Shown here in pieces: positions 25,577-39,803 of a DNA stretch of 64,000 nt (the stretch's first letter is position 1; every line of letters starts with the position of its first letter). Origin of the DNA: Pelomonas sp. Root1217 (GTDB taxonomy: Bacteria > Pseudomonadota > Gammaproteobacteria > Burkholderiales > Burkholderiaceae_C); the NCBI RefSeq assembly GCF_001425705.1, contig NZ_LMDC01000030.1, positions 186,001 through 250,000 on the forward strand, given 5' to 3'. Under the pieces are notes generated by a model. It did not search any database, had not been told where the DNA came from, and was given only the letters and a program-made list of their open reading frames with translations. Both the position numbers and the translations under genes were made by a program.

Positions 25577-26409
25577 ACTCGCACCTGCACAAGATCCTTT
25601 GCACCACGGCCCTCGCGTTGCTCGCTGCGGTGGCCCGCGCCGCTGCGCCGAACTGCGAAGCCGAGCCGCAGCTGCAGTTCGACCGCATCACCGAACGGGT
25701 CATCCTCGTCGGCGAGACCCATGGCAACGAGCAATCGCCGGCCTTCGTGGCCCGGCTCGTCTGCGGTCTGCTGACACTCGATCGCCCCGTCATCCTGGCG
25801 GTGGAACGCATCAGCGTTGAACAGCCGGCGCTGGACCGCTACCTGGCATCGGCCGGTCGCGCCGACGACGTCCGCGCGCTTCTGCGCGAGCATGACTGGG
25901 CAGCGCCCATGCAGGATGGTCGCAGCAGCGCGGCGATGCTCAAGCTGCTGGAACAGGTGCGGCGCTGGCGCCTGGCAGGGTTGCCCGTGGAACTGATTGC
26001 CATGGTGCAGCCCTGGAGTCCCGATGCCGCCACCTCCGCGCCCGTCAGCGATTCCAAAGTCGTGCAGGCCCGGGAGGATCGGGGCATGGCCGACACGGTC
26101 ACCGCGGCCCTGGCCCGGCATCCCAAGCACAGCGCCGTGGTGCTGGCCGGCAGCTTCCATACCGTCATCGGATCCAAGATCCACCAGGACATCATCGGCG
26201 CACCCTCCATGGGCGAGGTGCTCGCGACCCGCACGGCCGTCCACGTGATCGGCTTGAGCAGCGACGCCGGTTCGTCGTGGAACTGCGGAACCAGCTGCGG
26301 CCCGAACCCGCTGCTCGCGGCCCCCTGGGACCTGCCCGATGCCCGCATCGACACCCGCGTCAGCCTCGGCGAGATCGTTGTTTCGCCGCCGGCAGCGGCG
26401 GTGCGCTGA
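25573..26409 (+). CDS. secreted ChaN-like protein of unknown function
   Basis: This 278-residue protein has a signal peptide (HKILCTTALALLAAVARAAA). Early motifs VILVGETHGNEQSPAFVARL and, later, VVLAGSFHTVIGSK resemble the ETHG and GxxH elements of the ChaN/EreA/TraB superfamily, whose members bind haem, hydrolyse esters or cleave peptides using His/Glu sites. Four late Cys-containing positions (WNCGTSCG) may form a disulfide. The ATG overlaps the ugpQ stop (ATGA), so it is co-translated with the Ugp system, but a link to phosphodiester uptake is only positional. Confidence 0.6.
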   Translation: MNSHLHKILCTTALALLAAVARAAAPNCEAEPQLQFDRITERVILVGETHGNEQSPAFVARLVCGLLTLDRPVILAVERISVEQPALDRYLASAGRADDVRALLREHDWAAPMQDGRSSAAMLKLLEQVRRWRLAGLPVELIAMVQPWSPDAATSAPVSDSKVVQAREDRGMADTVTAALARHPKHSAVVLAGSFHTVIGSKIHQDIIGAPSMGEVLATRTAVHVIGLSSDAGSSWNCGTSCGPNPLLAAPWDLPDARIDTRVSLGEIVVSPPAAAVR

Positions 26410-26413
26410 TACA

Positions 26414-26428
26414 CCGCGCGATGCGCGG
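26414..26428 (+). terminator. possible terminator stem-loop after the ugp operon
   Basis: CCGCGC/GCGCGG with a 3-base loop begins 5 bases after the stop of the last operon gene. There is no T-run, so intrinsic termination would be weak. The position is the main argument. Confidence 0.35.
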
Positions 26429-26552
26429 AGACGCAGTGCCGCGCAGCCGCATGCCAAATCGGCGCCAAAGAATCTCGCTCGACGTGGCGGCGCCCCGGTC
26501 GATACGCCACCTGGAACACACGACGGGCATATGCCTCAGTCATAGCCTTGTT

Positions 26553-27551
26553 TCATTTCACCTTCTTCTCATCGATGGCCAGAGCGAGGGCTTCCTGGAC
26601 AATTCTTGACGTAGGCATGGCCAGAATCTGCCGATCACGCGGCCGGTTTCGGCTCGCCGCCATCTGCTCGCTCAGCGTCGCCTTCGCCCGCCCGTAGTGC
26701 CGTGCCACCGCGCTGGCGGAGCACAGGCCTGACTGCACGGCCAGGTTGGCCACCAGTGCCCGCGCGGTTGCGGCCAGATGGTCCTTGCGGACCACCAAGC
26801 TCTGCGCACCACGTGCCCGCAGCTTGATCTCCACCCAGCGTTCCAGAAGTGCCAGCGCTCCGGCGATGTTCTTGGTCTCGCTGGCAGCCACGAGCACGGC
26901 CGCAGCGCCGCGCACCTCTCGGGACATCGGCCCAAAAGGGCCGACCGCGCCGGACGCAAGGGCGATCCCATGCTCAAGTTCCCATTGAAGGATCTCCACC
27001 TCGCCCGGACGCAGTGCGATCCGCGAGCGCAGCGCGGATCGCCCCTCCCGCACCGTGTTGCCCAGGAGGCGATGCAGCGCGCAGGAGTCAAACCCCTCCA
27101 CCCAGTCCAAGCCCACGGCGCATCGCAACGCTGAATGCGCAAAATGCGTCGGCGCGACACACAGCCCCAAAGAGACGGGGCGCCACGCCAGCATCCGGAC
27201 CTCTTGGAGGAGCTGCTCAAGGCTGTCGATTTGGCGGGCCTGAGAAGCGCCGGCGAAGACGGGCCCGCGGATGCCGTCGGCGTCACGCACCCAACGCGCA
27301 ACGATGTTGGCAACGCCATGCGCAATCGCGTCGGGCTTGTCGCCGGCGGGCAATGCCGTCAGGAGGTGGATCTCAGAAGGTGTCAGCAGATAAAAGAACA
27401 GCTTGCGCTGGGGAGCGCGGTGCGCCTCCAGCAAACGGGTTCGGATTCGGCGAGCCAGCGTCGGCGCACTCAGAAAACTGCGCCCCACGGCGGCCTGCCA
27501 GTAAACGTGCCAAGTCCGCAAGGCGCGGTCGTCGAAGATGGAAGCGTCCAT
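26553..27551 (-). CDS. degenerate REP-associated (Y1) transposase-like protein with C-terminal HTH
   Basis: This 332-residue protein resembles RAYT/TnpA-REP proteins in layout. LFFYLLTPSEIHLLTAL near residue 55 stands where these enzymes have the HUH strand (typically HAYVLMPNHVHLLL). GPVFAGASQARQIDSLEQLLQEVRML follows, like their LFQGRFKAI-VDS segment. The C-terminus has a helix-turn-helix (SASAVARHYGRAKATLSEQM). The first His of HUH is replaced by Glu and no obvious catalytic Tyr follows, so it is probably inactive as a nuclease and may be a domesticated DNA-binding protein. GGAGAG sits 4 bases before the ATG. It borders the lasso locus. Confidence 0.5.
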   Translation of the reverse strand: MDASIFDDRALRTWHVYWQAAVGRSFLSAPTLARRIRTRLLEAHRAPQRKLFFYLLTPSEIHLLTALPAGDKPDAIAHGVANIVARWVRDADGIRGPVFAGASQARQIDSLEQLLQEVRMLAWRPVSLGLCVAPTHFAHSALRCAVGLDWVEGFDSCALHRLLGNTVREGRSALRSRIALRPGEVEILQWELEHGIALASGAVGPFGPMSREVRGAAAVLVAASETKNIAGALALLERWVEIKLRARGAQSLVVRKDHLAATARALVANLAVQSGLCSASAVARHYGRAKATLSEQMAASRNRPRDRQILAMPTSRIVQEALALAIDEKKVK

Positions 27552-28044
27552 CTCTCCATGACGTTAGCGAATTGATCCTTTTCTCCGCGTTTTTACGGAT
27601 GGCAGTGCCAACGTTCGGTATTCCATCGGCACGGGGCGCCCATCGCACGGCCCGCGCAGGGACGTCCCCGGTGCCGTGGCCCTGCCCTGGGACGACCGCG
27701 GCGTTGACACCGGCGGCGATGCGCAACTGAAGCGGCGCGCGGGTGATCCGATGAGCCGCAAGGCCTCGCATGCAACCCCACTCGCCGTCGATGTAGCAAG
27801 TTGCCCGGCTTCACGACGCCACGGGAACCGAACGAACAACCCGTCACGCCACAGCACCCGGATGTCGTGCGCGTTGGCGCCCGGCTGAACGGCCGCTGCC
27901 GCCTTCATGCAACCCGTCGAGGCCGAACGCAAGACAGGGCTCGAGCAAGGCTATGGATGGCCCGCGCAGGCGCCGTTAGCTTTGGCCGGCCTGATGCATT
28001 TCGCTGAAGGCATTCAACGGCAACTCAACCTGAAGGAGAACGTG
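27552..28044. other. 493-bp region upstream of the lasso precursor
   Basis: No convincing gene is present. It should contain the promoter of the lasso operon, but I see no clear sigma-70 or ECF motif. The precursor frame is open upstream back to 27907, yet only the ATG at 28045 has a Shine-Dalgarno sequence. A minus-strand stretch around 27800-27880 reads HDIRVLWRDGLFVRFPWRR, which might be a gene remnant; I could not place it. Confidence 0.5.
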
Positions 28045-28161
28045 ATGAACGAAGACTTGCAACTGGAAATCGTTGACCTGGGCGATGCCAAGGAGGAGAC
28101 CAAGGGTCGCATCCAGGGCGTGGAGCCCGAGCTGAACGAAGCAGCTCCGTACAAGCCCTGA
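28045..28161 (+). CDS. lasso peptide precursor, astexin-like
   Basis: This 38-residue precursor has AAGGAG 6 bases before the ATG. The leader (residues 1-20) is acidic and ends in DLGDAKEETK, with the Thr at position -2 that proteobacterial lasso maturases require. The predicted core is GRIQGVEPELNEAAPYKP (residues 21-38). Gly1 would form the isopeptide bond to Glu9 (nine-residue ring) or, less likely, Glu7. The ring pattern G-x-x-Q-G-V-E-P-acid equals that of astexin-1 (GLSQGVEPD), which closes at position 9. Only nine residues remain for the tail, with Tyr16 and Lys17 as possible plugs. The B, C and exporter genes follow on the same strand. Confidence 0.92.
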   Translation: MNEDLQLEIVDLGDAKEETKGRIQGVEPELNEAAPYKP

Positions 28162-28329
28162 TCACGGCGCTGTACCTCCGGCGTGCAGGCGGCCGACTGC
28201 GCGTCAACGGCGCAACGCGTGATCGTTGAGCTGAGCAGGACCGAGGAGGGATCCAAGGTCCTGCTTCCACGCCAGGCTACACGGCATGCAGCCAGCTGTG
28301 GCTATACACATCGAACGAAGGGAGTTGCC

Positions 28330-29061
28330 ATGCAACGCATCCATGCGTCACCACCACCGTACCAGCTGGCTGACCATGTCCGAGCCTGTCGCGTCGATGA
28401 GCAGGTCCTGCTTTTGGATATGCGGCGCAACAAGTATCTCGGCTTCGCCGGTTCGCAGCTGGATGCGCTGGGTCAAGTGATCGTCGACTGGCCCTGCCCT
28501 GCAGCGCACGGGAACGCCTTGACGCTGAGTCCGGCCACCACGGAGCGGCTGCAGCCCCTGCTCGATCAACGGCTGCTCTCTCAAGCGCGCATGCCACGTC
28601 GAACGGGGCCGCTGCTTCCCGAAGTGCTGGACTGTGTCGACCCCTATGCCGACCTCGCGCGTCCGCCGGCGGCCGTGCGAGAGGTCCTGTGCCTTGCGTG
28701 GGCCGCTGCGGGTGCTGCATTCTGGCTGCGGCGTCTGAGCCTGGCTGACATCGCGAGCCGCGTGGCGCGCCTGCGCCCGCACAGCCGCAGCACCGACGAC
28801 GGGGCGAGCACGGCGGCATTGCGCGACGCCGTGTCGGCATACATGCGGCTTCGCCCCTTCCTGTTCACCGCACATGACAAATGCCTGCATGACTCGCTGA
28901 CGCTGATCCGTTTTCTTGCCCGGCGCGGGATGTTTCCGGCATGGGTCATTGGCGTGCGAACCCGGCCTTTCGCTGCGCATTCCTGGGTGCAGAGCGATGG
29001 GCTGGTCCTCAACGACGTGCATGAGCACGTCCGCACCTACACGCCCATCCTCGTCGTCTGA
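28330..29061 (+). CDS. lasso peptide B protein (fused leader-binding and peptidase domains)
   Basis: This 243-residue maturase binds the leader and cuts it off. Residues 1-85 form a PqqD-like RiPP recognition element (YQLADHVRACRVDEQVLLLDMRRNKYLGF). The C-terminal half is the transglutaminase-like peptidase with Cys184 (HDKCLHDSLTLIRFLARRG), His217 (FAAHSWVQSDG) and Asp229 (LNDVHEH) as the catalytic triad. The two functions are in one chain, as is common in proteobacteria. GGGAG about 7-11 bases before the ATG at 28330 supports the start. The 168-base gap from the precursor includes a 7-bp inverted repeat (GATCACG 28160-28166 / CGTGATC 28218-28224) that may limit read-through. Confidence 0.93.
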   Translation: MQRIHASPPPYQLADHVRACRVDEQVLLLDMRRNKYLGFAGSQLDALGQVIVDWPCPAAHGNALTLSPATTERLQPLLDQRLLSQARMPRRTGPLLPEVLDCVDPYADLARPPAAVREVLCLAWAAAGAAFWLRRLSLADIASRVARLRPHSRSTDDGASTAALRDAVSAYMRLRPFLFTAHDKCLHDSLTLIRFLARRGMFPAWVIGVRTRPFAAHSWVQSDGLVLNDVHEHVRTYTPILVV

Positions 29062-29076
29062 CCCGAGCAACAGATC

Positions 29077-30897
29077 ATGTTCCGCTACATCGCCTTTTGC
29101 TGGGAGGTCGCCAGTCCGGACCAGGCGGATCTTGCTCACCGACTGGAGCAGGCCCTGGTCGATCACGGCTGGCAATCAGCGTTTCGCACGTCGGGGCATC
29201 GCGTCTTCATGACCGGCAACGCGCGCGGCGTCAACGACGCCTACCTGTTGACCGCCAACCAGGGCGTCGTCCTTGGACGGCTCTTCCGGCGCAGCGAGCC
29301 GCCGGCGCGCGGGCAAGGTGACATCGAGCTCACGGACGTCGAGGCACAGCGCATCGTGCACACGGATGGGCGCAGCCTCGTCGATCACTTCTGGGGCAGG
29401 TACGTCGCCTTTCTGCCCTCATGGACGGGCGTGCCGCGCGTGCTGCGCGATCCCACGGGAACCTTGCCCTGCTACCGCATCGAGCTCCAGGGCCTCACCG
29501 TCGCCCTGTCGTGGCTCGAGGACCTGTTTTCACTGCTGGACATGCCTGCGCCGCCGGTGGATTGGGATGGCGTTGCAGCCCACATGGTGCTCGGTCAGGT
29601 GAGCGGCCATCAGACGCTCCTGACCGGCGTCACCCAGGTCCTTGCCGGCGAACTGCTGCCCATGGCCGCTGGCAGCGGCCGGCCTAAACAGCTTTGGAAC
29701 GCGGTCGATTGCGCCCGGCGCAATTCATCTCTCGCCACGCCTGAGGCGTCCGCGCAGCTGCGTGACACCGTCGCCACTTGCGTACGGAGCTGGGCTTCTT
29801 GCTACGACGCCATCGTGCTCAGGCTATCCGGCGGCGTGGACTCGGCCATCCTGCTTGGCACCATTGCAGCTGGTCGCATCGCCAGCGACGTCGTCTGCCT
29901 GAACTACCACTCGCCCGGCACGGACAGCGACGAACGCTCCTATGCACGCCTTGCTGCCAAGCGCCACGACGTTGAACTTATCGAGGGGAACATCGACGAT
30001 GACTATCGCCTCGAAGACGTGCTGCACGTCGCGCGGACTGCGACTCCGGCCAATTACCTCGGCTTCATGGGGACCAGTCGCAACGATGCCGAGGTTGCCG
30101 CCTCCCGCTGTGCCGGTGCGGTCTTCAACGGCGCTGGTGGCGACCAACTCTTCTTCGAGGTTCGCTGCACCTGGCCCGCGGCCGACTACTTGAAGTTGCG
30201 CGGCTTCGACCGGGGATTTCTTTCAGCCGCCCTTGACGCGGCCCGCCTCGGCGAGGTCTCCGTATGGCAGGCGCTGCGACAGGCCGTGGTGAACAGGTCC
30301 TTGCGTGGGGACCCCATGGGTGGCGTCGGACGCCACCTGACGTTGATGGATACGGCAGTCATGGACGCCGCATTGAAGACCGCCCCGCGGTTCATTCACC
30401 CGTGCTGGCTCGCGGCGCAGGACCTGCCGATCGGCAAGTTCAATCAGCTCGGCATGGTCATCTGTCCTTTCGAGTACTACAACCACTACCTGGCCGAGGC
30501 ATCGCCCGAGCGGGTCCAGCCACTCATGTCACAGCCGCTCCTGGAGCTGTGCCTGGCAATGCCGACGTATGTGCTGACCCACGGCGGCCGCGGTCGTGCG
30601 TTGGCCCGCAAAGCCTTCGCATCTGAGATCCCGCCGGAAATCGCCACTCGCCGGTCGAAGGGCGGCACCGCGAACTACATCGCAACGGTGCTGCAGCGCA
30701 ATCTGCCGTTCGCGCGGGAGATGCTGCTAGACGGGCTGCTCGCTCAGCGGGGTCTTCTGGACAGGCAGCGCGTCGAGGCGGCGCTTGCCATCAGGCCGGG
30801 TTCGCAGACTGGCCATGTCACCGAGATTCACTCGTGCATCGCCACGGAAGCCTGGCTGCAGGTTGCCACGACGGCGGCACGTCGCCGTGAACCTTGA
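29077..30897 (+). CDS. lasso peptide C protein (asparagine-synthetase-like macrolactam synthetase)
   Basis: This 606-residue enzyme activates the ring acid of the core with ATP and closes it onto Gly1. The N-terminal half resembles a glutaminase domain but lacks the N-terminal catalytic Cys (it starts MFRYIAF), as usual for lasso cyclases. The ATP-pyrophosphatase motif RLSGGVDSAILLG lies near residue 250, and NGAGGDQLFFE near 352. It starts 15 bases after the B gene and is followed without a gap by the exporter. Confidence 0.93.
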   Translation: MFRYIAFCWEVASPDQADLAHRLEQALVDHGWQSAFRTSGHRVFMTGNARGVNDAYLLTANQGVVLGRLFRRSEPPARGQGDIELTDVEAQRIVHTDGRSLVDHFWGRYVAFLPSWTGVPRVLRDPTGTLPCYRIELQGLTVALSWLEDLFSLLDMPAPPVDWDGVAAHMVLGQVSGHQTLLTGVTQVLAGELLPMAAGSGRPKQLWNAVDCARRNSSLATPEASAQLRDTVATCVRSWASCYDAIVLRLSGGVDSAILLGTIAAGRIASDVVCLNYHSPGTDSDERSYARLAAKRHDVELIEGNIDDDYRLEDVLHVARTATPANYLGFMGTSRNDAEVAASRCAGAVFNGAGGDQLFFEVRCTWPAADYLKLRGFDRGFLSAALDAARLGEVSVWQALRQAVVNRSLRGDPMGGVGRHLTLMDTAVMDAALKTAPRFIHPCWLAAQDLPIGKFNQLGMVICPFEYYNHYLAEASPERVQPLMSQPLLELCLAMPTYVLTHGGRGRALARKAFASEIPPEIATRRSKGGTANYIATVLQRNLPFAREMLLDGLLAQRGLLDRQRVEAALAIRPGSQTGHVTEIHSCIATEAWLQVATTAARRREP

Positions 30898-30908: not shown

Positions 30909-32693
30909 ATGCTACGGCCGGGGACGCTCGCAGCCGCGCAGGGCCTGATTCGTGAGGCCGTGGACCGCCGTCTGCTTCTGGCCGCCTTTGGCATGCTGGT
31001 GCTGGTCACGCTCAGCGGCGCGCTTGCGGCAGGCTCGCCGCTGGCGCTCAAGCACTTGGTCGACGCGGTCGCAAGCACGGATCCGGCGGACCAGCCGGCG
31101 GGCAACGCCATGCTGCTGGCCGGTGCGATCTACTTGATGGCGTTGGCCGGAGGCCGGCTCATGGCGGACGTTCGGCCGCTCCTGGCCGGCACGATGGAGC
31201 AACGCGTGTTGGCCCACATCCGTCAACGCTTCTTTGCCCACGTGCTGCGCCTGCCAACGGCCTACCTCGTCAACCGTCGTGGCGGCGAACTGCTTCACAG
31301 CGCCGATCTCGCGGCCGCTGGCGCGCAGGCCATCATGTCTCACGTCGCGAACGGCATCGCTCCAGCGCTGATCGAGCTGGTCCTGATGTCCGTCGTCCTG
31401 GGCCAGCTCCAGCAGCCCGGGCTCGTGGTCTTGTTCGTCACGACGTCCCTGCTGTACCTGGCGGTCTTCGCGGTCGGGCTGCTCCGCCAGCAGCCGGCGA
31501 TCCGCGAAGTGTCGTCAGGGAGCCTGGAAGTGCACGGCCAACTCAGCGACGGCATCGCGCACGTCGAGACCCTGCGCTGCTTTGGCGCCGTGAACGAAGC
31601 CGAGCAGTCGTTGGGCCGGGCTTCTTCCTTGCTGGCGTCACGATGGCTCCGATTCCATCGACTGACCGTGCAAGGCGCGCTGGCTGCGTCGGCAGTGTTT
31701 GCGGTGACGCTGGCGGCCTGCCTCGTGCTTGCCGCTGAAGCCGTCGCACGGGGCCAGCTGAGCGTGGGTGGGTTCGTGCTGGCCAGCGTCTACATGCTGC
31801 AGTTGGTGCGGCCGCTCGAAACGCTCGGCATGGCGGCCCGCGACCTGGCTCGGGCCATTGGATTCATGCGGCCTTTGCTGGACATCCTCGCCGAGCCGTC
31901 CGAAGCCTGGACCGAACCGGACGCCCGCGCCGCCAGCAGGTGGACGCCGCCGGCAAGTTCGCCATCGCTGCACTTCGAGGACCTCTACTTCGGATACGAC
32001 ACCCAAAGGCCGGTCATTCGCGGTCTGGATCTGCAGATCGCCGCCGGTCGCACCACCGCCATCGTGGGACGCAGTGGCTCCGGCAAGTCCTCGCTGGTGC
32101 GGCTGCTGCTGCGGCTGCACGAACCCCAGGCGGGGCGCATCCTGGTGGATGGCCATCCCATCGAGTCGATACCGACCGCAGATCTGCGCGCCATGATCGG
32201 GCTGGTGCCTCAGGACGCGGGACTGCTGCAGGCGAGCGTCAGAAGCAATATCGCGCTCGGCCTGCCAGGGGCGACACAGCAGAGCATCGAGCACGCAGCC
32301 ACGCGCGCGCAGCTCCATCAACTGGTCGGCGAAATGCTCCACGGCTACGACACGCTGCTCGGCGAGCGCGGCCAGACCTTGTCCGGCGGTGAACGCCAGC
32401 GCCTGGCAATCGCGCGGGCGATGCTGCGCAAGCCCATGATCTACCTGCTGGACGAACCCACCTCCATGCTCGACGGCAAGACGGAGGCGGCCATCCTGCC
32501 TGCCCTGCAAGAGCTGACCTTCGGCTGCACGACCCTCGTCATCGCCCATCGCCTCTCGACCATCATGCACGCCGACCACATCGTCGTCCTCGAGGGCGGG
32601 CAGGTGCACGAGCAGGGACGGCACGCGGAGCTGCTCGCCAAGCAAGGGCTCTATGCGCAGCTGTGGCGCCAGCAGACTGGCAGCCAGGTCTGA
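30909..32693 (+). CDS. ABC exporter of the lasso peptide (permease-ATPase fusion)
   Basis: This 594-residue half-transporter has six transmembrane segments in residues 15-300. The ATPase domain follows, with Walker A GRSGSGKSSLVRL, signature LSGGERQRLAIARA, Walker B MIYLLDEPTSMLD and H-loop IAHRLS. In lasso clusters this D protein exports the product and gives self-immunity. The start is uncertain: ATG at 30909 is used here, while a TTG at 30894 overlaps the C-gene stop (TTGA) and would add 5 residues; neither has a clear Shine-Dalgarno sequence. Its stop is one base from the stop of the convergent isopeptidase gene. Confidence 0.92.
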   Translation: MLRPGTLAAAQGLIREAVDRRLLLAAFGMLVLVTLSGALAAGSPLALKHLVDAVASTDPADQPAGNAMLLAGAIYLMALAGGRLMADVRPLLAGTMEQRVLAHIRQRFFAHVLRLPTAYLVNRRGGELLHSADLAAAGAQAIMSHVANGIAPALIELVLMSVVLGQLQQPGLVVLFVTTSLLYLAVFAVGLLRQQPAIREVSSGSLEVHGQLSDGIAHVETLRCFGAVNEAEQSLGRASSLLASRWLRFHRLTVQGALAASAVFAVTLAACLVLAAEAVARGQLSVGGFVLASVYMLQLVRPLETLGMAARDLARAIGFMRPLLDILAEPSEAWTEPDARAASRWTPPASSPSLHFEDLYFGYDTQRPVIRGLDLQIAAGRTTAIVGRSGSGKSSLVRLLLRLHEPQAGRILVDGHPIESIPTADLRAMIGLVPQDAGLLQASVRSNIALGLPGATQQSIEHAATRAQLHQLVGEMLHGYDTLLGERGQTLSGGERQRLAIARAMLRKPMIYLLDEPTSMLDGKTEAAILPALQELTFGCTTLVIAHRLSTIMHADHIVVLEGGQVHEQGRHAELLAKQGLYAQLWRQQTGSQV

Positions 32694-32694
32694 G

Positions 32695-35019
32695 CTATCC
32701 CCGGCTGGGTTCGCGAGCGCACCGGGGCGTGGCGTCGACCTGCGCCTTCATCTTCTCCATCTGGTGCCAGCCGTCGTACTGCGCCTTCAGCGATGCCGGC
32801 GTCTCGGCCGCCAGGATCGGGACGGTCCGCTCCTCCCCCTTGAGCCAGAAGCGGTACCAGTCGACGTTGCCCTGCAGGGAGAGCATCCTTTCGCTGGGCA
32901 GAGCCAGCGAATGGGCACCGCCCGGGATCAGCACCATTTCCACCGGCTTGTACTGGCGGCGCAGCAGCGCGTAGATGTCGTAGTTGCCATAGACAGGCAC
33001 GCCATAGGACTCGATGCGCAGGGCGGCGCGCACGCAGTCGGTGTTCAGCGAGGGGTCGTTGCGCACCCATTCGTCCCGGGTCGGCCCGAACGGCAGGCCG
33101 CGGTTCATGTCCTCCATCTGCCGCCACGCTTCAACGCCGTACGCCACCGAGAACTGAAACAGCGTGTTGGTGTCGCCATCCGCCAGCGTCGCGGCACGGA
33201 TGGCCAGATCGGAGAAGGTGACGAGGTTGAGGGTGGTCTCGCCCGTGGTGCTGAATCCGATGATGCCGACCCGGTCAGGGTCGACCAGCCCGTCACGGAC
33301 CAGCGCGTCGACGGCGCCACGCACGCCTTCGTAAAACTGGGTCAGCTTCGCCTGGTTATCGCTACCGGGGTCCCTGCCCTTGCCGGGCTGCAGCCCCATG
33401 GCCAGGACCAGGATGCCCTCGCGAACGAAGGCGCGGCCCGGGTAGGCGCTCGTGAAGCCGAAGTTGAAGTTCGGTCCGTCCAGGTAGAAAGCCTCGGGAT
33501 CGAAGAAATAGGTCTGGATCACCAGTGGTCGCCTGCCCTGCGGGGTCGCGTCTTTCGGCGCCAACAACCCGCCGGCCCAGTCCCGCCCCCTGGCATCGCG
33601 CCAAGCGTAGGGCTTCATGACGCCCCAGGTTGTCGTGCTGAACTGGGGGTTCAATCGGGTCAGGCGCACCGCCTGTCCGGCCGGCCCGTTCGCGACGACA
33701 TCTGGGGGCTCGTTCAAGGATTGCTGCAACCGCAATGACCAGGCCGCGGCGGCGCCCTCCACTTTCCCGGCGTCGGCCACTTCGCGCCAGCCGCTCGCAT
33801 CGCGCCGCTGGAACCTCCGACGCCGTTCACCGTCGACGACGACAAAACCGTCGGCCGTGGGCTCGGCCGCCTTGACCCGGCCGTCCATGCGCGCAACCAC
33901 CTGCCAGCGTCCGCTGTCCGGCCAGTACTCGATCACATGGGACGCTGCCGAGTCATTGCCGCTCGTCTTGGGCAGATGGGTCCCCGCGAGGATCACGGAT
34001 GCGCCGCCGCCCTGCCACAGCCTGTCCGTGCGGCCCTGGAACCACCCTGGCAGCGCATCGTCCGGCGCGTCCACGACGGTCTGCTCACGGCCGTCCTCCA
34101 GCCGCCAGGCCGTCATTCGGCGGGCTGTCTTGACGAGTGCCCCGGAGTAGTACCGCAAGGGGTCGGCCAGCAGTGCCGGGGCATACCGGTCGACGACCTC
34201 GGCCAGCAAGGGGTAGTCCCGGCTCCAGGCGAGCGTGCGTTCGGGTTCGAAGCGGGGCAGCAGCGCCCAGCGACCGTCCGGGGCGATGCTGACCTGCGGC
34301 TTTGCGAAGTTCGCTTCGAAGAACGGCTCTCCGAGCGGCCGGGGCTTTGCCGTCGTCCCGAGGTCGGCAACATAGAAGCGGTACTTGCGCAGCTGCGACT
34401 GCAAGCGCTGCTGGCCCCACTTGACCGTCCAGAACGACTGGTTGCCGATGACGATGCTGCGCGCGCCCGTCGTCATGGGCGGATTGGGCACCTGCACGGC
34501 GTAGACCATGCGGCGCCCATCCTTCGATACATCGAAGGAAACGACGGGCGCGGCCTCGTGCGTCAACGGTGTCAAGGTTCGGGTCCGCAGGTCGAACCGA
34601 TATGCCTGGTTGACGGCGGCGCCGATCCGGCCCGTGAACACCAGCGTGTTTGCATCGAGCCAGCGGACACGCTGGACGGCCTGGTCGCCGTCATAGGGAT
34701 CCTCGGCCGCATCGAAGGAGAACACAGCTTGCGGTGCGGGCGGGTCATCGCCGCTGAGCGCATCAGGCTGCAGGGACAACAGCAGGATCTCGTAGCGGTT
34801 CGAGTCGGTCGCCATGTTGGCCCGGCGCACGACGATGAACGCGCGGGTGCCGTACGGCGAGATCTGCCGGCGGATCTCGGCAGGCTCCTTGCCTTCGGGC
34901 TGGACGATCCGCGTGAACGCGACGATGTCGCGCACCGATGGGCCTGCGGCGGCTGCCGCGCATGCAGGCGGCAGCGGCCCAAGGAACGCGCACACCGCTG
35001 TGAGCCAGGGAAGACGCAT
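32695..35019 (-). CDS. lasso peptide isopeptidase (Atxe2-type, S9 fold)
   Basis: This 774-residue protein has a signal peptide (LTAVCAFLGPLPPACAAAAA), a beta-propeller-like N-terminal domain and a C-terminal alpha/beta-hydrolase domain. The nucleophile Ser is near residue 589 in GIIGFSTTGETTLNL, and the catalytic His near 702 in GGAHSLALPSERM. Atxe2-type enzymes hydrolyse the isopeptide bond of the cognate lasso peptide and linearise it. Encoded beside a TonB receptor and a lasso cluster, that role is the best call; a plain prolyl oligopeptidase-like protease is the alternative. It is last in the fecI-fecR-receptor operon. Confidence 0.88.
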   Translation of the reverse strand: MRLPWLTAVCAFLGPLPPACAAAAAGPSVRDIVAFTRIVQPEGKEPAEIRRQISPYGTRAFIVVRRANMATDSNRYEILLLSLQPDALSGDDPPAPQAVFSFDAAEDPYDGDQAVQRVRWLDANTLVFTGRIGAAVNQAYRFDLRTRTLTPLTHEAAPVVSFDVSKDGRRMVYAVQVPNPPMTTGARSIVIGNQSFWTVKWGQQRLQSQLRKYRFYVADLGTTAKPRPLGEPFFEANFAKPQVSIAPDGRWALLPRFEPERTLAWSRDYPLLAEVVDRYAPALLADPLRYYSGALVKTARRMTAWRLEDGREQTVVDAPDDALPGWFQGRTDRLWQGGGASVILAGTHLPKTSGNDSAASHVIEYWPDSGRWQVVARMDGRVKAAEPTADGFVVVDGERRRRFQRRDASGWREVADAGKVEGAAAAWSLRLQQSLNEPPDVVANGPAGQAVRLTRLNPQFSTTTWGVMKPYAWRDARGRDWAGGLLAPKDATPQGRRPLVIQTYFFDPEAFYLDGPNFNFGFTSAYPGRAFVREGILVLAMGLQPGKGRDPGSDNQAKLTQFYEGVRGAVDALVRDGLVDPDRVGIIGFSTTGETTLNLVTFSDLAIRAATLADGDTNTLFQFSVAYGVEAWRQMEDMNRGLPFGPTRDEWVRNDPSLNTDCVRAALRIESYGVPVYGNYDIYALLRRQYKPVEMVLIPGGAHSLALPSERMLSLQGNVDWYRFWLKGEERTVPILAAETPASLKAQYDGWHQMEKMKAQVDATPRCAREPSRG

Positions 35020-35133: not shown

Positions 35134-38100
35134 CTACCAGTCGAGCGTCAGACGCGCAGAGACGTAGCGGCCGCGCCAGTCCGCCTGCGTGACGTCGAAA
35201 TTCGGGGCACCCGGCACGAACTGCGGTTCACGATCCGCGAGGTTCGTGACGCTGACCCCGAACGTCGCCGCCCGAAAGCCGGGCAGCAGCTCCGGCCAGA
35301 GTTTCTTCAGGTTCAGGCTGCCAGCCAGGTCGTGGATCCAGTAGTTGCCCAGTCGCCGCTCGCTGGTGCCCGCGTCCTTGTAGTTGCCGAGATAGCGGCT
35401 CGTCAGCCCGAGATTCCAGGTGGCGGCGTCCAGTCCCACGGACAGGCGCCCTTTCCAGCGTGGCGCCCAGAAGTCGATGAATCGACGTCCGAGGCGATCC
35501 ACGACCGGCGCGCCAGGCGTCAGTTGAACCCGGTACTCGTTCACCCGGGTCGCCCCGGCCGCAACCGTCGCACGGCCGGCGGACGTCGTCCAGGCGTAAG
35601 CTGCGTCGACGTCGGTTCCGGCCGTATCGAGGCGGCCGTAATTCACCTCGGCGGCCTTGATGCTCGTGACCACGCCAGGCAGACCGTTGGCGGCGGGCCC
35701 ACGCGTCACGAAGGTCGGAAACGCACTCTCGTAGTTCAGCGCCGACTGGGGCGCCAGAAGCGCGATCATCGAGCGGACCCTCAGTTGCCAGTGGCTCGCG
35801 CTCAGTCGCGTGCCAAGACCCCCTTCCGGCTCCCACACGGCGCCGATGCCGCGGGCCTGGCCGCGCTCGGGCTTCAATTCCTTGTTCGTCGTGCGCACCA
35901 GCGAGCCCGAGGTGATGGCCTCACCACCGCGTGCCGGATCGACGAGGCCATAGAACGAGGCGTCGTCGACAAGGTCGCTGACGTTGGTCTGCAAGAGCGT
36001 CGGCGGCTTGAACGAGCCCGCCGCCGAGCCTCGGATCAGTAGGTTGCGTGTGGGGCGCACCTCGAGTCCGCCTTGAAAGGTGTTCGCCGAGCCGAAATCG
36101 CTGTAGGTGTCGCGGCGCGCCGCCAGCGTCAGGGCGGCCAGGTTCCAGGTGACGCGCCCTTCCTCGCGACCGGCCAGCAGCGGCACGCGGGCTTCGCCGT
36201 ATGCGGCGGAACTGCGGCGGTTGCCATGGATTTCGGACTGGCCGGGAACGGACATGTCGTACCAGTCGCGTGCGGCCTCCGCGCCGACGACGACGTCCAC
36301 CGGGCCCGCCCACAACTGGCCCACGCTGCCGCGCACGATGGCACTGGCCTGATCCTTGCGCCCCCGGTCGCGGCGGATCGTGTCTGCCAAGATGCCGCGC
36401 AGCACCTCATCGGTCGCCGCCTTGCCTGCCGTGAAAGGGTTGAAGGCGGTCGCCGGGTTCTGGGAGGCCAGCGCAGCGGCCAGGGCGGTCGCGTTCACCG
36501 AGTCGTTGCGCGACAACGAGCTGCCATGGTCGCTGCTCGTCGAAACCGCCAGCTCAGCGTCCCAGTCCTCGCCGAGCTGGCCCTTGAGGCCCGCCAGCGC
36601 TCGCGTGAATCTGCCCTGTCGCAGGAGCCCCTGAATGCCACTGTCGTTGCCCAACACCGACGAAACGCGGACGTCGACGCCGAACGGATTGAAGAGGTTG
36701 GCCGCCGGCACCTTGACGCTGGCCAGCGTCACGCCGTAGCTTGGTGCTTCCGTGCGGTCCTTGACGAACATGGCTTCGCCAAACGCGGACCAGCTGCCCG
36801 ACAGGCGATGCTCCGCGAGCGAATGCAGGGCGAACGTCTGCGTACCGTGGATCAGCGCAGCGCCTCCACCCGTTGCGTAGCGGTTGCAGAGGTTGCGCAT
36901 GCCCGCGGTGGCCTGGTAGTCAGCGAGCGTCGGTGTCTGACCCGATGCCAGCCGGGGAATCCCCGCGACGCTGGCGCCCAGGCCCGGCAGGTTGCCGCTG
37001 ATGCTGCTCACGTTGCCCGGCGCGCAGTAAGGCTGGCGCTCATCTGCGCCGCCGATGGCCCTGAAGTCCACGTTCGCGAACCGCGAGCGCTCCACCATGG
37101 TCAGCGGCGTCGAGCGGCTGAACGACCCGAGCAGCAGATAGCTGCCATCGGCGTCGCGTCCTCCTGTGGCGATCGAGACGCTGCCATCACGAAAGCCCCG
37201 GCCTGTGCCCAGCCGTGCGGCCAGGGAAGACCCGTCGATGGACTTCTTCAGCACGATATTGACCACACCGGCCAGTGCATCGCCGCCATACACGGCGGAC
37301 GATCCTGACGGCACCACTTCGACCCGCTCAATCGCAGCCAATGGGATCAGGTTCAGGTTGAAGACGCTGCCGGTCGATGAACCCACGGCCTCCAGCTTGC
37401 GCCCGTTGACCAAGACCAAGGTGGACCCCAGCGGCATGCCGCGCAACTGCACCGTGCCCTGCCCGAGGGTGCGGCTGAACCCGCCTTCGCCCGCGGAAGC
37501 AGAGACCTCGTTGAGCCCGGCCAGGAAGCGTTGCAGGTTGGGCTGGCCGCTGCGTTCGATGTCTCGGGCCGTGTAGACATTCACCGGGGCAGGACCTTCG
37601 GCGTCGACGCGCCGCAGTCGCGATCCGGTGACTTCCACCCGCGTGATCTGGTAAACCGATTCGCTGTTGGGCGGTTGTGCGCCGACGTCGGTGTCGCCCG
37701 GCCCGGCGCCGCCATCGGCAGCGCCCGCGCGGACCGACGCCGGCGCGCTGGCGGACCCGGGCGATGCGGGGATCGCGGGAACCGTCGTGGCTGAAGGACC
37801 CGCAGGGACCGCCTTCTGTGCCGCCAACGACCGCACGACCACGGCGCCATCCGGCGTGACGTGCACCTCCAGATCGGCGCCGGCCACCGCTGCGGTGATG
37901 GCCTCGACGCCGGACAGGCGACCGGAAACAGGCTTGGCCAACCGCCCCGCGACGATGCGCGGATCGAAGAGCACGGACGTGCTCGTCTGTCGACCGATCG
38001 CGCGCAGCGCGTCGCCCAGGTCCTGCGACGGCTGCTCGATCACGTAGCGCGCAGCCGGACTCGGCTCGGCCGCACTCGCCAGTCCGCAATCCAGCAGCAG

Positions 38101-38175
38101 CGAGATCGCCAAAGGAAAAGGTAGCCAGCGCGCGCGAAAGCCGATGGTGCCCATCGTGTCGAAGTTTCCAAACAT
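35134..38175 (-). CDS. TonB-dependent transducer receptor with STN domain
   Basis: This 1013-residue outer-membrane receptor begins with a signal sequence and a secretin/TonB short N-terminal (STN) domain (AARYVIEQPSQDLGDALRAIGRQTSTSVLFDP), which contacts FecR-type regulators. A Gly/Ala/Ser linker leads to a plug domain (ITRVEVTGSRLRRVDAEG, VQLRGMPLGSTLVLVNGR, SSAVYGGDALAGVVNIVLKKS) and a long beta-barrel ending in RYVSARLTLDW with a terminal aromatic residue. The sensor-type design and neighbours suggest it recognises the extracellular lasso peptide or a chelate of it. It is 78 bases downstream of fecR. Confidence 0.9.
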   Translation of the reverse strand: MFGNFDTMGTIGFRARWLPFPLAISLLLDCGLASAAEPSPAARYVIEQPSQDLGDALRAIGRQTSTSVLFDPRIVAGRLAKPVSGRLSGVEAITAAVAGADLEVHVTPDGAVVVRSLAAQKAVPAGPSATTVPAIPASPGSASAPASVRAGAADGGAGPGDTDVGAQPPNSESVYQITRVEVTGSRLRRVDAEGPAPVNVYTARDIERSGQPNLQRFLAGLNEVSASAGEGGFSRTLGQGTVQLRGMPLGSTLVLVNGRKLEAVGSSTGSVFNLNLIPLAAIERVEVVPSGSSAVYGGDALAGVVNIVLKKSIDGSSLAARLGTGRGFRDGSVSIATGGRDADGSYLLLGSFSRSTPLTMVERSRFANVDFRAIGGADERQPYCAPGNVSSISGNLPGLGASVAGIPRLASGQTPTLADYQATAGMRNLCNRYATGGGAALIHGTQTFALHSLAEHRLSGSWSAFGEAMFVKDRTEAPSYGVTLASVKVPAANLFNPFGVDVRVSSVLGNDSGIQGLLRQGRFTRALAGLKGQLGEDWDAELAVSTSSDHGSSLSRNDSVNATALAAALASQNPATAFNPFTAGKAATDEVLRGILADTIRRDRGRKDQASAIVRGSVGQLWAGPVDVVVGAEAARDWYDMSVPGQSEIHGNRRSSAAYGEARVPLLAGREEGRVTWNLAALTLAARRDTYSDFGSANTFQGGLEVRPTRNLLIRGSAAGSFKPPTLLQTNVSDLVDDASFYGLVDPARGGEAITSGSLVRTTNKELKPERGQARGIGAVWEPEGGLGTRLSASHWQLRVRSMIALLAPQSALNYESAFPTFVTRGPAANGLPGVVTSIKAAEVNYGRLDTAGTDVDAAYAWTTSAGRATVAAGATRVNEYRVQLTPGAPVVDRLGRRFIDFWAPRWKGRLSVGLDAATWNLGLTSRYLGNYKDAGTSERRLGNYWIHDLAGSLNLKKLWPELLPGFRAATFGVSVTNLADREPQFVPGAPNFDVTQADWRGRYVSARLTLDW

Positions 38176-38253: not shown

Positions 38254-39321
38254 CTAGCGAACGTTTTCGAGTTCCAAACGTCCGCCCGTTTCATGCACGG
38301 CAAGGCCGTGCAAAGCCGCGACAGCGCGCGCGAACTTGGCGCTGTCGCCCGTTCGGAATACCCCGCTGACGCGCAGGCCGGCTGCTGGGAGGCTACCCAA
38401 TAGCACCACCGGCGTTCGGTTATATCGGTTCATTTCGTTCACGGCCTCGTCGAGCGGTGCGTCCTGGAACACGGCCTCGCTGCGCTTCCAGGCCATCGCC
38501 TGTTCAACGTTCGGCCGGTCGACGCTGGCGATCACGGAACCTCGGCCGCCGTTGGCGCCGTTGTCGATCCGCAGCCGGTCCCCGGGTTGCAGGGTCACGA
38601 GCTTTGCGGGCGCTAGTCCTTCTGCATTCAGTTCCTTGGCGGGCTGCACGGTCACCTGGCCCTCGATGAGCGTCACGGCCAGCGCCTTCGCCTTCTTGCG
38701 CAAATCGACGAACTTGACCGCGAAAGCCGTGCCGACTGCGACGACCTCGCTGCCGGCCACACGGACGACGAAGGGCCGGGACGCATCCTTCGCCACTTCG
38801 AACAGCGCCTCGCCGCCATCGACATCGACGGTGCGCCGGTCCGGGTGCATGCGCACTTGCACATGCGTGTCGGTATTGAGCAGCATGCGCGTGCCGTCTT
38901 CCAGCACGACCGACCGCTGCTCGCCAATCGCGGTGGTGTAGCTGCCTTGCCGGTTCCAGTCCTGAAGCTGCAAAACGCCGGCGGCCAACACCACCGCCAG
39001 AACTCCCGCGCTCGCCCAGCGCCACGTCGAGCCGCGCGAGACGTGGCGCTCTTTGTTTTGACGCTCTGCCGCCACGGCGGCATACGCGTCCGCCACCTTC
39101 ACGCGTGGTATCTCCATCCAGACATCCGTGCAGCGGCCAAAGGCCTCGCGATGGGCAGACGAGCGCGCCTGCCAAGCCTGGAACTCACGTTCCATGGCCG
39201 GGTCTCGGTCTGGCCCGTGCAGGCGGGCGACCCAAAGCGCCGCCTCGGCGGCGATCTCGCGCGTCACCGGCGGCGCGGTAGGGCCGCCGCGGTCCGGTTT
39301 GCCCGAAGGGACACCGTTCAC
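38254..39321 (-). CDS. FecR-family anti-sigma/signal transducer
   Basis: This 355-residue inner-membrane regulator links the receptor to the ECF sigma factor. Residues 15-70 form the cytoplasmic DUF4880 part (REIAAEAALWVARLHGPDRDP, FQAWQARSSAHREAFGRCTDVW). A transmembrane helix follows (WASAGVLAVVLAAGVLQL), then a periplasmic FecR domain (GEQRSVVLEDGTRMLLNTDTHVQVR) and a C-terminal STN-like domain. I chose the GTG at 39321, which overlaps the sigma-factor stop (GTGA); the frame is open further upstream, but that part overlaps the sigma gene. Confidence 0.9.
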   Translation of the reverse strand: MNGVPSGKPDRGGPTAPPVTREIAAEAALWVARLHGPDRDPAMEREFQAWQARSSAHREAFGRCTDVWMEIPRVKVADAYAAVAAERQNKERHVSRGSTWRWASAGVLAVVLAAGVLQLQDWNRQGSYTTAIGEQRSVVLEDGTRMLLNTDTHVQVRMHPDRRTVDVDGGEALFEVAKDASRPFVVRVAGSEVVAVGTAFAVKFVDLRKKAKALAVTLIEGQVTVQPAKELNAEGLAPAKLVTLQPGDRLRIDNGANGGRGSVIASVDRPNVEQAMAWKRSEAVFQDAPLDEAVNEMNRYNRTPVVLLGSLPAAGLRVSGVFRTGDSAKFARAVAALHGLAVHETGGRLELENVR

Positions 39322-39803
39322 GGGTACCAGCCTTCCATCCTTCCCGCGATCAGCAGCACCGCCTTGGCAATGTGCTTGTGCACGGTGGTGATGCTGATGC
39401 CATGCCGGCGCGCGATCTCCTGATAGCTCAGCCCATCGATGCGATGGGCCAGCAGGATCTGTCGGGTCTGGCCGCTCAACAGCGAGATGCACTCGCTCAG
39501 CCGCGCCAGTCGTTCCCGCCCGAGCAGCTCGTCCTCGACGCCGGGCCGGCCGTCGATCAGCACCAGATCCTCCAGCGTCACCTGCTCGCCGCGCGTTGCG
39601 CTCAGGCGGTGGGCATCGATTGACAGGTTGATGGCGGCTCTCATCAAGAAGGCCTCGGGTTGCTCTACGGTGTTGTCGCGCTCATAGCAGGCCAATCGTA
39701 TCCAGGCCTCCTGCACGAGGTCGTCCGCATCATGCTCCGACCGGCCCCGCCGCATCAGCGCAGATTTGACCTTCGAGAATACCCTTTGCCAGTCGATGCT
39801 CAT
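39318..39803 (-). CDS. ECF sigma factor (FecI-like) of the lasso uptake operon
   Basis: This 161-residue sigma-70-family protein has region 2 (HDADDLVQEAWIRLACYE) and region 4 (YQEIARRHGISITTVHKHIAKAV helix-turn-helix). It is the first gene of the operon with fecR, the receptor and the isopeptidase, and should direct transcription of receptor genes when the ligand is sensed. GGGGA lies about 5 bases upstream of the ATG. A closely related second copy is at 42142. Confidence 0.92.
   Translation of the reverse strand: MSIDWQRVFSKVKSALMRRGRSEHDADDLVQEAWIRLACYERDNTVEQPEAFLMRAAINLSIDAHRLSATRGEQVTLEDLVLIDGRPGVEDELLGRERLARLSECISLLSGQTRQILLAHRIDGLSYQEIARRHGISITTVHKHIAKAVLLIAGRMEGWYP

Follow-up and report, generated by a model that had tools for sequence, protein, structure and literature searches.

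A rubrivinodin-family lasso peptide cluster of Pelomonas sp. Root1217 with a divergent, transposase-derived gene as its putative regulator

The window, that is, the whole stretch of 64,000 nucleotides of Pelomonas sp. Root1217 that was analyzed, contains a lasso peptide cluster. Four genes on the plus strand, in the order A, B, C, and D, converge on genes for an isopeptidase, a TonB-dependent receptor, FecR, and FecI on the minus strand. Divergently from the precursor gene A lies a gene derived from a RAYT transposase, and the region between the two contains three copies of the heptamer CCGAACG (Table 1).

Table 1. Genes and sequence features of the lasso peptide locus, with positions in the window
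Feature	Position	Strand	Basis and remarks
Protein of RAYT descent with replaced catalytic residues and a retained C-terminal helix-turn-helix	26553..27551	-	proposed regulator
Site 1, CCGAACG	27612..27618	-	candidate site; ~62 bp upstream of the start codon of the RAYT-like gene
Site 2, CCGAACG	27828..27834	+	candidate site; 217 bp upstream of the precursor ATG
Site 3, CCGAACG	27923..27929	+	candidate site; 122 bp upstream of the precursor ATG
Predicted lasso operon promoter, TGGATG, 17 nt, TAGCTT (conserved cTAnCTT)	27954..27982	+	predicted from conservation
Ribosome binding site, AAGGAG	28033-28038	+	6 nt 5' of the start; conserved in an alignment
Lasso precursor A, leader, 20 aa, end ...GDAKEETK	28045..28104	+	L12, G13, D14, A15, K16, T19, G21 invariant in 11/11 aligned precursors
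Core GRIQGVEPELNEAAPYKP, predicted Gly1-Glu9 ring and 9-residue tail	28105..28158	+	Glu9 in 117/120 listed relatives, Glu8 in the other 3; mass in text
B, leader-binding and leader peptidase	28330..29061	+	PF13471, 72.8 bits; NF033537, 82.2 bits
C, lasso cyclase, asparagine-synthetase type	29077..30897	+	PF00733; SGGVDS motif
D, ABC exporter	30909..32693	+	PF00005, PF00664
Lasso isopeptidase (Ser590, Glu670 or Asp681, His703)	32695..35019	-	AtxE2 match; NF033523, 138 bits
TonB-dependent receptor, FecA-like N-terminal extension	35134..38175	-	Plug, PF07715
FecR-type anti-sigma factor	38254..39492	-	PF04773, PF16220; true start probably inside the listed ORF
FecI-type ECF sigma factor	39318..39803	-	PF08281, PF04542

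The precursor frame extends from the ATG at 28045 to the stop codon at 28159-28161 and encodes 38 residues, the leader MNEDLQLEIVDLGDAKEETK followed by the core GRIQGVEPELNEAAPYKP. Frame, translation, and the presence of a ribosome site agree with an earlier, sequence-only reading of this DNA; the site is AAGGAG, 6 nt before the ATG. That reading had proposed a lasso precursor, and the proposal stands. The precursor passes the curated cut-off of PF19399 (44.4 versus 38.5 bits; Pfam) as well as the one that NCBIfam sets for the benenodin family of lasso peptides (34.5 versus 33 bits), and the lasso genes B, C, and D follow downstream. Therefore, the frame is more than a chance occurrence; it is a lasso precursor that heads a complete cluster. 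It has the features of the PF19399 family, namely a leader motif with Thr at position -2 and a core starting with Gly1, in agreement with the leader/core boundary previously placed after ...EETK. The recomputed core masses, 1967.0112 Da for the linear form and 1949.0006 Da after loss of one water, reproduce the earlier values of 1967.0 and 1949.0 Da. A PDB search with the precursor gave no meaningful match, and no hairpin of excess stability was detected in its 5'-UTR (z 0.13).

B has a single match in its own 6.65 Mb genome; among same-genus genomes, it is present in G625 and G545 and was not found in G427. A search of genome contigs with an alignment of B yielded 80 loci (L023-L102); a query with the single sequence gave no relative. 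By record title, the 30 loci L023-L052 are from Burkholderiales, except for L031 and L033 (Betaproteobacteria) and L037 (Nostoc), and L043, L045, and L048 are near-duplicates among them. The 50 loci L053-L102 are mostly alphaproteobacterial, with one from Luteimonas, one titled Bacteroidetes, and one titled Proteobacteria (L066). Cys185, His217, and Asp229 of B, which we take to be its triad, are invariant in 15/15 cases. The best PDB match of the isopeptidase is AtxE2 (E 3.1e-12), and its NF033523 score is below the NCBIfam cut-off of 400 bits. Its residues Ser590, Glu670, Asp681, and His703 are invariant in 19/19, the acting acid being Glu670 or Asp681. Residues 31-123 of the TonB-dependent receptor match FecA weakly (E 1.1e-4). 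PADLOC gave no match.

Of the 30 loci L023-L052, 28 have a precursor of the same pattern before B; in the other two, L038 and L041, the sequence before the B match comprises only 39 and 120 bp. Two different precursors stand in tandem before B in Roseateles saccharophilus (L024:4396-4714) and R. cellulosilyticus (L025:5384-5687), and in L024 no ATG lies near the leader of the second one. Across 11 aligned precursors, M1, L12, G13, D14, A15, K16, T19, G21, and E29 are invariant, E29 being Glu9 of the core. With a profile of these 11 sequences, 404 proteins were found at E <= 1 among 457 candidates; 120 of them were listed, and the following counts refer to those. PF19399 is assigned to all listed relatives except P0041, and NCBI names some of them as rubrivinodin family. 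Glu9 is present in 117 of the 120, the remaining 3 having Glu8 together with Asp9, and residue 7 is acidic in 9. The cores, with the start set by our own motif, comprise 17 (2 relatives), 18 (37), 19 (30), 20 (49), or 21 (2) residues. These patterns among PF19399-type relatives leave the proposed Gly1-Glu9 closure well supported: the ring is most likely formed between these residues, and a tail of this length is ordinary for the family. The description of the tail as unusually short was thus mistaken, as 18 residues is the second most common core length. A seven-residue ring, as in the xanthomonins, would require closure at Glu7. This residue is present in the window core, but the predominance of Glu9 over an acidic residue 7 in the listed relatives and a same-genus relative, GLTEGIRGEVNEAAPYVKP, with Arg7 and Glu9, make such a closure extremely improbable.

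Cores identical to that of the window are present in P0063 (the cluster that holds the window protein, with 3 member sequences), P0079, and P0080, and the core of P0070 (32 contigs) differs by one substitution. The earlier remark that no peptide with this core had been described holds for the papers searched, none of which prints the core, but not for the protein databases. PF19399 was detected in only one of 399 sampled genomes of the order, the one from which the window comes. The predicted peptide is an ordinary rubrivinodin-family lasso peptide, one more core in a large known family. With that family (PF19399/DUF5974; Rubrivivax gelatinosus) it shares the leader end GDAKE.T., Gly1, Glu9, a core of 17-21 residues, the fused B, and C. 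The ring and tail sequences differ from those that we take to be rubrivinodin's, the window core (GRIQGVEPE...APYKP) belonging to an EETK subgroup; the presumed rubrivinodin core agrees with P0076.

The sequence-only reading had instead called the peptide astexin-like. On this view, the QGVEP motif in the ring would reflect close descent from astexin-1, and the tail would have been shortened. Six of the nine ring positions indeed agree with what we take to be the astexin-1 sequence, and the leader pattern LGaaS.ETkG occurs in several alphaproteobacterial precursors found. The isopeptidase, the TonB-dependent receptor, FecI/FecR, and the general leader pattern are also common to the window and the clusters of astexin-1 and other alphaproteobacterial isopeptidase clusters. 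However, the best curated match of the precursor is PF19399, the named relatives are Burkholderiales (e.g., Paucibacter, Roseateles, and Rubrivivax), and exact QGVEP, read by eye, is found in 4 of the 120 listed relatives, 37 of which have 18-residue cores. The features that presumably define the astexin type are an Asp9 ring and a long tail, whereas the window core has Glu9 and a tail of nine residues, and the assignment was therefore rejected. Kinship by the enzymes was likewise set aside, because the matches of B and C to Burkholderiales are far better than those to Asticcacaulis. For the best segment of B, identities to L023-L052 are 33-53%. With the Asticcacaulis loci whose match spans most of B (L055, L057, L059, L062, L063, and L068), they are 29-34%; the matches to two further Asticcacaulis loci, L064 (38%) and L077 (52%), cover C-terminal parts only. 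Taken together, we regard an astexin-like origin as very unlikely.

The unexpected part of the locus is the divergent gene. Its protein in the window has no Pfam or NCBIfam match, even at relaxed thresholds. Among the 25 members from the window and the loci, 21 are matched by NF047646 (REP-associated tyrosine transposase) at E <= 0.1 (best 1.5e-10; the window protein is not among the 21), and 2 are matched by Y1_Tnp. Some JGI records name the gene RayT, and hhalign related the family to four RAYT-like proteins of the host family at 96.8%. On these comparisons, the divergent gene descends from a RAYT transposase. RAYTs are characterized by the motifs HuH and Y---NP, of which the Asn is involved in metal binding, and those of subclass 2.1 of class 2 have a C-terminal helix-turn-helix, with no REP hairpins found near this subclass (PMC6006769, partial text). 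With RAYT/TnpA-REP proteins of this subclass, the family shares sequence ancestry, the core region, and the C-terminal helix-turn-helix (PMC6006769, partial text). It differs from them in being tied to one type of gene cluster and in having lost both motifs in all of 145 members (the 25 mentioned above and the 120 best of 303 database hits). The first His of HuH is replaced by Glu and the second is kept in 145/145 (E-U-H), the catalytic Asn is replaced by Arg in 145/145, and the position of the catalytic Tyr is occupied by Met (131), Leu (7), Ile (5), Ala (1), or Val (1). Two intact RAYTs of the same order in the same alignment (L126 and L131) retain H, H, Y, and N. The helix-turn-helix region aligns with these two and is strongly conserved across the 145 members; Pfam hits to it are weak and varied, and a PDB search with the profile of the RAYT-like family gave no meaningful match. 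The replacement of the catalytic His, Tyr, and Asn, combined with conservation of the helix-turn-helix, suggests that cutting of single-stranded DNA was probably lost and DNA binding probably kept. We classify the protein as derived from a RAYT transposase, not as one. Such residue losses are also seen outside this family: among the four RAYT-like proteins of the host family, HuH, Tyr, and Asn are all present in L118 alone, the Tyr is missing from L119 and L120, and L121 has neither the first His nor the Tyr.

The RAYT-like gene is closely linked to lasso genes. Of the 30 loci L023-L052, 25 have it next to the precursor; when only loci with sufficient sequence upstream of B are counted, the proportion is 25 of 27. 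Three of the remaining five loci have only 39 to 302 bp before B, and the other two are L033 and L051. In the mostly alphaproteobacterial loci L053-L102, no RAYT-like match was found in the stretches examined (0/50) and a D-like match in 3/50 (L054, L056, and L059), whereas the window contains both genes. Among 299 genomes of the host family, strong RAYT-like hits (E < 1e-100) were obtained in 14, which are exactly those with a strong B (E < 1e-35). A fifteenth genome, G513, has B at 4.8e-6 only and no RAYT-like hit, and four further genomes have weak hits (1e-6 to 1e-10), which are the RAYT-like proteins L118-L121. In the 399 genomes of the order, the RAYT-like gene or B was strong only in the window's own genome, the next hits being at 8.8e-14 and 3.8e-8. 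At most 5 to 9 candidates per genome were scored in these searches. Distances among the RAYT-like proteins are correlated with the C distances (Mantel r 0.776, n 21) and the B distances (0.667, n 22), with null maxima of 0.378 and 0.37, respectively; for B versus C, the value is 0.859. Among the papers listed in literature searches, nothing relevant was found that links lasso peptides to RAYTs, transposase regulators, or these genera.

The divergent regions are strongly enriched in CCGAAC. In 23 regions, comprising the window and 22 loci after removal of the near-duplicates L037, L045, and L048, this hexamer or its complement is present in 62 copies, compared to a mean of 7.0 and a maximum of 14 in 200 shuffles. 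The copies recur at three nearly constant positions. Within narrow position bins, exact CCGAAC was found at site 3 in 20, at site 2 in 19, and at site 1 in 14 of the 23 regions; wider bins with one mismatch allowed yielded 22 (22 exact), 22 (20 exact), and 19 (15 exact), respectively. All that the three sites have in common is CCGAAC(G/A). Site 3 is located 53 bp before the conserved cTAnCTT; a simple sigma-70 scan found no consensus promoter before the precursor, and cTAnCTT was recognized by its conservation alone. Some 18-21 nt downstream of both site 1 and site 2 lies a weak T-rich element, which is missing at site 3; because of this element, these two sites could be parts of promoters. 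In the 6.6 Mb genome of the window, the full site architecture was found at a single place, and in the control at none. The two-site pattern alone gave 8 matches, compared to 17 in the reversed control, and is hence unspecific by itself. Within 250 bp upstream of other cluster genes, CCGAAC was found for the TonB-dependent receptor in 12/15 loci, for the isopeptidase in 2/18, and for FecI in 1/3. The conserved position and codons of the copies before the receptor, assessed by eye, point to FecR coding sequence, and these copies were disregarded. Loss of a first precursor from the 493-bp gap of the window was considered and rejected, because sites 2 and 3 have kept their conserved distance to the present precursor.

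Several clusters and gene copies deviate from the usual arrangement. Both loci without an adjacent RAYT-like gene retain sites: L033 has site 3 (at 122) and lacks site 2, and L051 has sites 2 and 3 (at 202 and 118). The genomes of these loci, G610 and G449, contain a RAYT-like gene beside another lasso cluster. The RAYT-like gene of G507 neighbors a precursor at the end of a contig. In G532, the RAYT-like gene and B are on different contigs and, as far as seen, not adjacent. This orphan gene (L147:6913-8262) has no lasso gene in the 14 kb examined and adjoins integrase- and transposase-like genes, identified by eye. It is nevertheless preceded by CCGAACGT, 66 bp before the presumed conserved start (30 bp before the next upstream ATG), and the lasso cluster on the other contig has sites at 208 and 122. 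The reverse situation, a RAYT-like gene and no site, was observed in the near-identical L036 and L037, and these are the only 2 of the 145 members with Val instead of Glu in the presumed recognition helix. The coincidence of a changed recognition helix with missing sites is suggestive, although it amounts to a single evolutionary event. L037 is titled Nostoc sp. CHAB 5836, and its cluster is nearly identical to that of Paucibacter sp. PLA-PC-4; the lasso cluster in this cyanobacterial record is probably an assembly contamination.

As judged from the gene families, B would remove the leader after ...EETK, C would close Gly1 onto Glu9 around the tail, and D would export the product. The TonB-dependent receptor would take the product up, the isopeptidase would then reopen the ring, and FecR/FecI would relay its presence. 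The RAYT-derived protein, which seems to have lost its cutting site, may act as a dedicated control protein of the cluster that binds CCGAACG once upstream of its own coding sequence (site 1) and twice in front of precursor gene A (sites 2 and 3). We favor activation of the lasso operon combined with control of its own gene, because site 3 would be located about 60 bp before the predicted transcription start, at a location used by class I activators; this choice of direction is a guess based on that location. An ordinary lasso peptide with a transposase-derived regulator of its operon, the binding of which we infer, is in our view the best explanation of the locus and a somewhat probable one. 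In alphaproteobacterial clusters, a GntR-like gene precedes the precursor (PMC9266682, partial text). The wider proposal is that a RAYT family has turned into catalytically dead transcription factors, whose binding to CCGAACG in the divergent promoter switches on the rubrivinodin-type lasso operons of Burkholderiales and replaces this GntR-like regulator; we regard the arguments for and against it as evenly balanced. If true, a bacterial transposase would have become a pathway regulator, and a concrete operator sequence for switching on such lasso clusters would be at hand.

Alternatively, the cluster could be ordinary throughout, with CCGAACG being read by a host regulator or by FecI, and the RAYT-like gene could be a passenger or act on DNA structure. 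The link between the RAYT-derived protein and the sites is indirect, and a reader of CCGAAC could be inherited with the cluster; FecI was matched in L027, L034, and L039, which are the loci of L023-L052 whose stretch reaches it. The persistence of sites in clusters without an adjacent RAYT-like gene would fit this alternative, and so would the T-rich element downstream of sites 1 and 2, as promoter parts might have it. This element and the absence of catalytic residues from three of the four other RAYT-like proteins in the host family count against the RAYT-derived regulator and in favor of another factor. Against such a factor, the downstream element is absent at site 3, the orphan copy in G532 has a site of its own, and the same residues are replaced in all members while the helix-turn-helix is conserved. 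Furthermore, 49 other clusters (L053-L102 without L066), most of which have FecI matches and none of which showed a RAYT-like gene in the stretch examined, contain 26 copies of CCGAAC in up to 700 bp upstream each. This corresponds to about 0.8 per kb and thus to background density, the shuffled versions of the 23 regions having about 0.9 per kb. We therefore consider another factor possible, if rather doubtful. RAYT ancestry and the variability of the core could also be explained by a protein that is still active and diversifies or mobilizes the cluster. However, the catalytic residues are replaced in 145/145, none of the three inverted repeats in 26300-28350 (arms at most 60 apart) is clearly REP-like, and the gene has a single match in its own genome, so that such DNA processing is hardly credible.

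Apart from its regulation, the cluster combines an exporter with an isopeptidase. The clusters of the window and of rubrinodin both contain an ABC exporter, an isopeptidase, a TonB-dependent receptor, and FecI/FecR (PMC9266682 and PMC10926693, partial texts). According to the partial text of PMC9266682, isopeptidase clusters all lack an ABC transporter, with rubrinodin as the one exception. In contrast, the window and 13 of the 30 loci L023-L052 combine D with the isopeptidase (14 with L032, in which the isopeptidase is farther off). These numbers suggest that the pairing is common in this group, which makes a loop of export, uptake, and linearization testable. The isopeptidase is found without D in 5 of the 30 loci, and neither gene is found in 3. 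In 8 loci, D was found without the isopeptidase within the stretch examined, which in 5 of them terminates inside D or shortly behind it. Unlike the window, L034, L039, L040, L044, and L051 have an isopeptidase and no ABC exporter after C, and there may have been more than one gain or loss of D. In Pelomonas aquatica KCTC 42961 (L027:10734-12476), the match to C comprises the first 58 codons only and is followed by D from residue 69, so that this cluster looks broken by a deletion.
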